64,000 nt of DNA from Terriglobia bacterium (lineage in GTDB: Bacteria > Acidobacteriota > Terriglobia > JAIQFV01): NCBI GenBank assembly GCA_028716525.1, contig JAQUPQ010000002.1, forward strand, positions 124,001 to 188,000, in the 5' to 3' direction. Shown piece by piece: positions 44,575 through 44,911 of the stretch. Numbering within the stretch: position 1 is the stretch's first letter; the number at the start of each line of letters is the position of its first letter. Made by a program: the position numbers and the translations under genes. A model generated the notes under the pieces. It saw nothing but the letters and a program-made list of their open reading frames with translations, made no database searches and was not told where the DNA came from.

Positions 44575-44911
44575 TCCCGTTCCTCGTTATCGAATCTCTG
44601 TGACCGAGATTCTGAGTAATCTTATGCTACCGCAAAACCAAATGTCAACGGGCGGTGGAACCCGGTAATGACTCATTTTGAATGGGGTGGCGCACACATG
44701 CGCTCCAGGCATGTGTGCGGAGTCCCCCTTGTTGATGTACGCACACATCGTCCCCCACGGCGGCCGATGTGTGCGCCACCCAGAGGTGAAAAAGAATTCA
44801 AAATGAGTCACTACCTGGAACCCGGTTTTCTTGACGCTCCTAGACCCCTTTGTTAAACTCAGCGCCTCTTCGGAGCTGGGTCTGGTCATCGATACGATCC
44901 AAAGACAAACC
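44575..44911. other. 337-bp divergent interval between mcmA1 and leuS
   Basis: No gene is seen. About half of it is the inverted-repeat insertion at 44656-44826. The remaining 85 bp before the leuS ATG (44827-44911) should contain the leuS promoter or leader; no confident consensus was picked out. The region before mcmA1 (44575-44655) likewise shows no clear promoter. Confidence 0.6.
44656..44826. mobile_element. MITE-like inverted-repeat element flanked by 11-bp direct repeats
   Basis: TGGAACCCGGT occurs at 44656-44666 and again at 44816-44826 as direct repeats, consistent with a target-site duplication. Inside, a perfect 15-bp inverted repeat (TGACTCATTTTGAAT, 44669-44683 with 44796-44810) and a second one (GGGTGGCGCACACAT, 44685-44699 with 44767-44781) make a long stem. 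The inner DNA can alternatively fold as two 11-bp hairpins: 44691-44701 with 44709-44719, and 44740-44750 with 44765-44775. A 14-bp stretch (44782-44795) is present on the right arm only. No open frame is contained, so it is non-autonomous. Confidence 0.75.

Follow-up and report, generated by a model that had tools for sequence, protein, structure and literature searches.

Bacterial MITEs such as MITEAba12 (PMC6382973), Correia and RUP are short, TIR-bounded, non-coding, multi-copy elements that carry target duplications and are likely to be moved in trans. An IS1-family insertion sequence, the ISAba3-like element, has the TIR GGTGGTGTTTCAAAAAGTATGCTG and an 8-bp target-site duplication (TSD; PMC6382973). 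REPINs and BIMEs consist of inverted REP pairs with GTGG-type heads that can form two hairpins or one long one; the inverted pair is the REPIN layout (Bertels and Rainey 2011, PMC3116915), and a GT(A/G)G head has been described for REPs linked to genes for RAYTs (REP-associated tyrosine transposases; PMC2817692). TIRtrons and TIRYT elements, known in Acidobacteria, combine tyrosine-transposase or REP systems with TIRs; in the passages covered (PMC3733652), the TIRs flank the tyrosine transposase gene itself and target duplications are not described.

Here we analyse a small element in the window (the whole stretch of 64,000 nucleotides of Terriglobia DNA that was studied). It is of a known kind, a genuine MITE, and what is unusual is its composite build, with IS1-type ends around a REPIN; it is largely an ordinary transposon relic with an unusual interior. 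It shares the general features of the bacterial MITEs listed above, but has IS1-type ends and an interior that is a REP pair, not a shrunken IS. As in IS1-family insertion sequences, its ends begin with GGTnGTGnnTCA, it is flanked by an 8-bp duplication and elements that share its ends contain an IS1-like transposase. By contrast with those insertion sequences, it holds no gene, no autonomous copy was found in the genome of the window, and the related transposases are single ORFs of approximately 280–300 amino acids that diverge from IS1 models. Its interior has the layout, heads and alternative folds of REPINs and BIMEs; however, DDE-type TIRs and target duplications enclose the REP pair, which has been amplified together with them. 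Its TIR is of the IS1 type, which sets it apart from TIRtrons and TIRYT elements. A partial literature search found no published description of REPs inside IS1-type MITEs, which is not proof of absence.

Boundaries and structure of the element

The genome of the window (G000; 4.2 Mb, 104 contigs, 96.5% complete) contains at least 16 full-length copies of the element, each 151–152 bp in length and located at unrelated loci. Comparison of 16 copies placed the element of the window at 44664-44815 (152 bp), between an mcmA-like gene and leuS. The copies exhibit pairwise identities of 92–100%, two being identical, and similarity in their alignment ends at GGTAGTGACTC...GAGTCACTACC. The element is short, lacks coding capacity and is bounded by 20-bp TIRs that differ at one position (Table 1).

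Outside these ends, the 8-bp flanks are exact duplicates in 12 of the 16 copies and agree at 7 of 8 positions in the other four, and no such matches (0) were observed when flanks were mis-paired between different copies. At positions 9–12, beyond the duplication, the flanks agree in 1, 6, 6 and 1 of the 16 copies, respectively. The original prediction had proposed an 11-bp target duplication, and the 11-bp direct repeat, TGGAACCCGGT at 44656-44666 and 44816-44826, is indeed there. The duplication itself is confirmed; its length is not, as just 8 bases (TGGAACCC) duplicate across the 16 copies. The apparent 11 bp arises because GGT forms the first three bases of the element on the left and belongs to the host flank (44824-44826) on the right, a match to the element start that is due to chance.

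The other predicted repeats are also present in the sequence. The outer perfect 15-bp inverted repeat (44669-44683 and 44796-44810) is the inner part of the 20-bp TIR. Nested within it is a second perfect 15-bp inverted repeat (44685-44699 and 44767-44781), together with two exact 11-bp hairpins (44691-44701/44709-44719 and 44740-44750/44765-44775), both of which start with CGCACACAT. The element can fold as two hairpins or as a single long one, and the predicted fold is stable far beyond chance, with z = −8.0 as DNA and −7.0 as RNA relative to shuffled sequence and 0 of 200 shuffles as good. A check for further copies of the stems in the genome returned the 16 full copies, each with its own 8-bp duplication. 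The view of this DNA as a non-autonomous mobile miniature element therefore stands, with three amendments: the duplication measures 8 bp, the inner hairpins are REPs and are not IS-derived, and the element overlaps neither predicted promoter.

The element is, in all probability, a 152-bp IS1-type MITE that was moved in trans by an IS1-like transposase, carries a captured REPIN and is near-neutral at its present site.

Table 1. Features of the element and of the surrounding intergenic region (window coordinates)
Feature	Position	Strand	Remarks
Predicted sigma-70 promoter of the mcmA-like gene, TTGACA-18-TAAGAT	44619-44648	-	Consensus match only; 15 bp left of the element
Left target-site duplication, TGGAACCC	44656-44663		8 bp; flanks match at ≥7/8 in 16/16 copies
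Left TIR, GGTAATGACTCATTTTGAAT (family consensus GGTAGTGACTCATTTTGAAT)	44664-44683	+	Also found at the ends of IS1-like elements of other genomes
REP 1, GTGG-type head and palindrome CGCACACATGC / GCATGTGTGCG	44685-44722	+	
Upstream copy of direct repeat CGCACACAT	44691-44699	+	Recombination with 44740-44748 gives the 103-bp form
Downstream copy of direct repeat CGCACACAT	44740-44748	+	
REP 2, inverted (GGGTGGCGCACACATCGGCCGCC... on the minus strand)	44740-44781	-	Completes the inverted REP pair (REPIN layout)
Right TIR (GGTAGTGACTCATTTTGAAT on the minus strand)	44796-44815	-	
Right target-site duplication, TGGAACCC	44816-44823		
Predicted sigma-70 promoter of leuS, TTGACG-17-TAAACT	44831-44859	+	Also in G001 and G002; 15 bp right of the element

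Insertion between mcmA and leuS

Family models confirm the identity of both neighbours, an mcmA-like gene (methylmalonyl-CoA mutase N-terminal domain) and leuS, which diverge from the intergenic region. Just two promoter-like sites were found in this region, both facing outward from the element. Their −35 boxes are separated by 182 bp with the insert and by 22 bp without it. Two same-family relatives, G001 and G002, conserve the leuS-side promoter, with a different gene downstream of it. A check for a relative that lacks the element was positive in both genomes, which are without it at the orthologous site; towards mcmA, their intergenic region has diverged too far for a clean single copy of TGGAACCC to be recognised.

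The original prediction also held that the element could affect expression of either gene. Such an effect is possible, but a strong one is not indicated, because the element lies upstream of both predicted −35 boxes and breaks neither promoter. A near-neutral insertion is the simplest reading, and the element would have come to lie between the divergent promoters and left both uncut. That the insertion is instead adaptive and alters mcmA or leuS expression is unlikely. The wider −35 spacing could keep apart two promoters competing for polymerase, or shift an upstream site; however, both −35 boxes are intact and lie 15 bp from the element ends.

IS1-type ends and the likely mover

Named genomes were scanned for exact matches to the 20-bp TIR. 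Two complete elements with the same TIR and an IS1-like DDE transposase were found in source records that are both labelled Acidobacteria: a 2302-bp element in PMUS01000093.1 (L132), with the exact 8-bp duplication TGGCGCGC, and a 2723-bp element in PMOP01000140.1 (L139), with the exact 8-bp duplication CATTGCTG. Transposases of this type score 24.3–29.9 bits against the Pfam IS1 transposase family (PF03400, cut-off 24.1). The NCBIfam IS1 model is their best hit, but at 54–59 bits it remains below its cut-off of 100, and these scores mark them as divergent for IS1. A genome of the same family contains a 2188-bp element (L097) with variant ends, the 8-bp TSD GATAATCC and a homologous transposase, and a further relative, G004, has a 588-bp internally deleted copy that retains the C-terminal end of such a transposase gene. 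No IS1-like transposase was detected in G000 (96.5% complete, 104 contigs) by Pfam family, C-terminal fragment or full-length protein.

The MITE thus has its TIRs and TSD length in common with the autonomous L132 and L139 elements of other genomes, and no such element was found in G000. An 8-bp duplication accompanies all 16 copies as well as L132, L139 and L097, and the ends start with GG, as in the IS1 family with its target duplications of 8–9 bp. From these sequence comparisons, the assignment of the ends to the IS1 type appears well supported. Because elements in other genomes share its TIR and duplication length, we infer that an IS1-like DDE transposase family is the likely mover of the MITE copies.

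It is very unlikely that the MITE belongs to a non-IS1 transposase family that shares 8-bp duplications and GGT...ACC ends by chance. Such a family would account for the lack of an IS1-like gene in G000, and a 1.1-kb element with related ends (C83:7156-8265) does have an IS200-like gene. However, the exact 17-bp TIR and 8-bp duplications surround IS1-like transposase genes in two other Acidobacteria, and the IS200-like gene of the C83 unit looks like a passenger. IS200-type enzymes are not known to produce target duplications of this kind.

An inverted REP pair as cargo

The inner hairpins constitute an inverted REP pair, and each of the two inner ends bears the GT(A/G)G head, GGGTGGCGCACACAT.... 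Stand-alone palindromes elsewhere in G000 share GGGTGGCGCACACAT with them and have no TIR: in a REP-to-TIR check at a fixed offset, the REPs of the MITE exhibited 0–1 mismatches in 17 positions and all other REPs 7–11. In G002, RAYT genes (L161 and L165) have the same REPs, in inverted orientation, on either side, and an equivalent inverted REP pair without TIRs is found at G002:C59:53262-53392. Several of the same REPs lie beside one RAYT gene in G001 (L158).

These observations raise the alternative that a RAYT mobilised the 152-bp unit in its entirety as a REPIN or BIME, spread by single-strand transposition, with the outer repeats forming part of the hairpin. The inner hairpins are genuine REPs that are RAYT-associated in relatives, and the unit is able to form a single long hairpin, as this reading would have it. 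It is nevertheless highly improbable, being strongly disfavoured by the 8-bp target duplication at every copy. Target duplications are typical of DDE transposases and are not expected from IS200/IS605-type tyrosine transposases. Moreover, REPs elsewhere occur without the outer TIRs, and the TIRs occur around IS1-like genes. Three weak RAYT-like genes were found in G000, none of them flanked by the REP of the MITE, and because no cognate RAYT was found in G000 we do not place the complete MITE among RAYT-mobilised REPINs. The repeat on the flanks of the best of the three (L156, G000:C6) is a different one, GGGGACAGACACC / GGTGTCTGTCCCC.

The weakest alternative, a conserved regulatory structure of the mcmA–leuS intergenic region (terminator, attenuator or protein-binding hairpin), would fit the very stable predicted fold between two divergent genes but can be set aside as extremely improbable, because 15 other copies lie at unrelated loci, the orthologous site of both relatives lacks the element, its position upstream of both predicted promoters means that it is not expected in either transcript, and a regulatory RNA or terminator was rejected when the intergenic region gave no Rfam match and no terminator-like site.

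For the preferred reading, an IS1-type MITE with a captured REPIN, the history would be as follows. The cargo would be a REPIN from a separate tyrosine-transposase (RAYT) system, not an IS remnant. It would have been captured between IS1-type ends, after which the composite would have been amplified to at least 16 copies by an IS1-like DDE transposase supplied in trans, which recognises the 20-bp TIRs as ends, mobilises the DNA that they enclose and generates the 8-bp duplication. The direction of capture was probably REPIN into MITE, because the REPs are more widespread and are RAYT-linked. A 103-bp form would have arisen later through deletion between the CGCACACAT direct repeats. Two such copies correspond to the 152-bp form minus exactly 44691-44739, with 4 point differences each, and the 103-bp form would be the exact product of this deletion. 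The copy at C3:104527 is flanked by an exact duplication, GAGCCAAC. Because searches of G000 yielded no IS1-like transposase and no RAYT with these REPs on its flanks, the family has probably become immobile there, or its partner lies in unassembled sequence.

With a DDE-transposon shell and a tyrosine-transposase cargo recognised within one 152-bp unit, what looked puzzling becomes a history that can be tested. REP pairs are considered RAYT-dependent. Spread of a REP family by another transposase would demonstrate that palindromic repeats are able to switch vehicles, and such a switch bears on the persistence of REPs in genomes without a cognate RAYT.

Recurrence in other lineages

Palindromic interiors also occur in MITEs of other genomes whose ends are the same or closely related. 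One of these genomes, G019, belongs to the same class as G000; the ends of its MITEs are closely related to those of the 152-bp element, and the inverted pair inside them is unrelated. All six inverted pairs sampled outside MITEs in G019 lack the TIR, which is present in two MITE controls. Sampled interior matches mostly have recognisable TIRs in G400 (Chitinophagaceae), and several have decayed TIRs in G399. Local REPIN cargo in four lineages was considered and rejected, as the G400 and G399 matches are MITE copies and not free REPs, and only G000 and G019 lend support. Evidence suggestive of recurrent capture thus comes from those two lineages only. It is possible, but somewhat doubtful, that enclosure of local REP pairs, or of similar palindromic repeats, by the ends of IS1-type MITEs has happened repeatedly and in different lineages of bacteria. 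If it is true, REPINs gain a second, RAYT-independent route of spread, or the MITE gains a hairpin core that aids its persistence.

Related elements

The 1.1-kb TIR-bounded unit at C83 (L031 1157-2266; G000:C83:7156-8265) was rejected as an autonomous partner of the MITE, as it holds an IS200-like gene and its duplication is imperfect (CGTCC shared). It has the same TIR family at its ends and contains several other palindromes and an IS200/IS605 transposase (142 aa), which is best seen as a passenger. A start similar to that of this unit occurs at L041 1437 (G000:C58). A 3.2-kb unit in WHTF01000002.1 (L145 3145-6377) is bounded by the TIRs of the MITE and by an exact 8-bp duplication. By eye, its largest ORF (390 aa) resembles an HTH/ImmA-IrrE-type protein, neither of the two listed ORFs encodes a transposase, and the unit is possibly a passenger-gene transposon.

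The site of the C3 103-bp copy (L024 1301-1630, G000:C3:104300-104629) contains an N run with identical sequence on both sides, probably a scaffolding artefact caused by the hairpins. A 46-bp form at C22:59964 has the duplication CTCCAGAG. Elements with related ends measure 160 bp (L036 1174-1333), 74 bp (L033 1567-1640) and 46 bp (L032 1465-1510), the last consisting of almost nothing but two TIRs while keeping an exact 8-bp duplication. A second MITE type of 318–324 bp (L038 1088-1405, C8:25087-25404; L040 1195-1518, C3) has ends as in the 152-bp MITE and many GTAG-like palindromes, and its C8 copy is flanked by the exact 8-bp duplication CTTCAACG.
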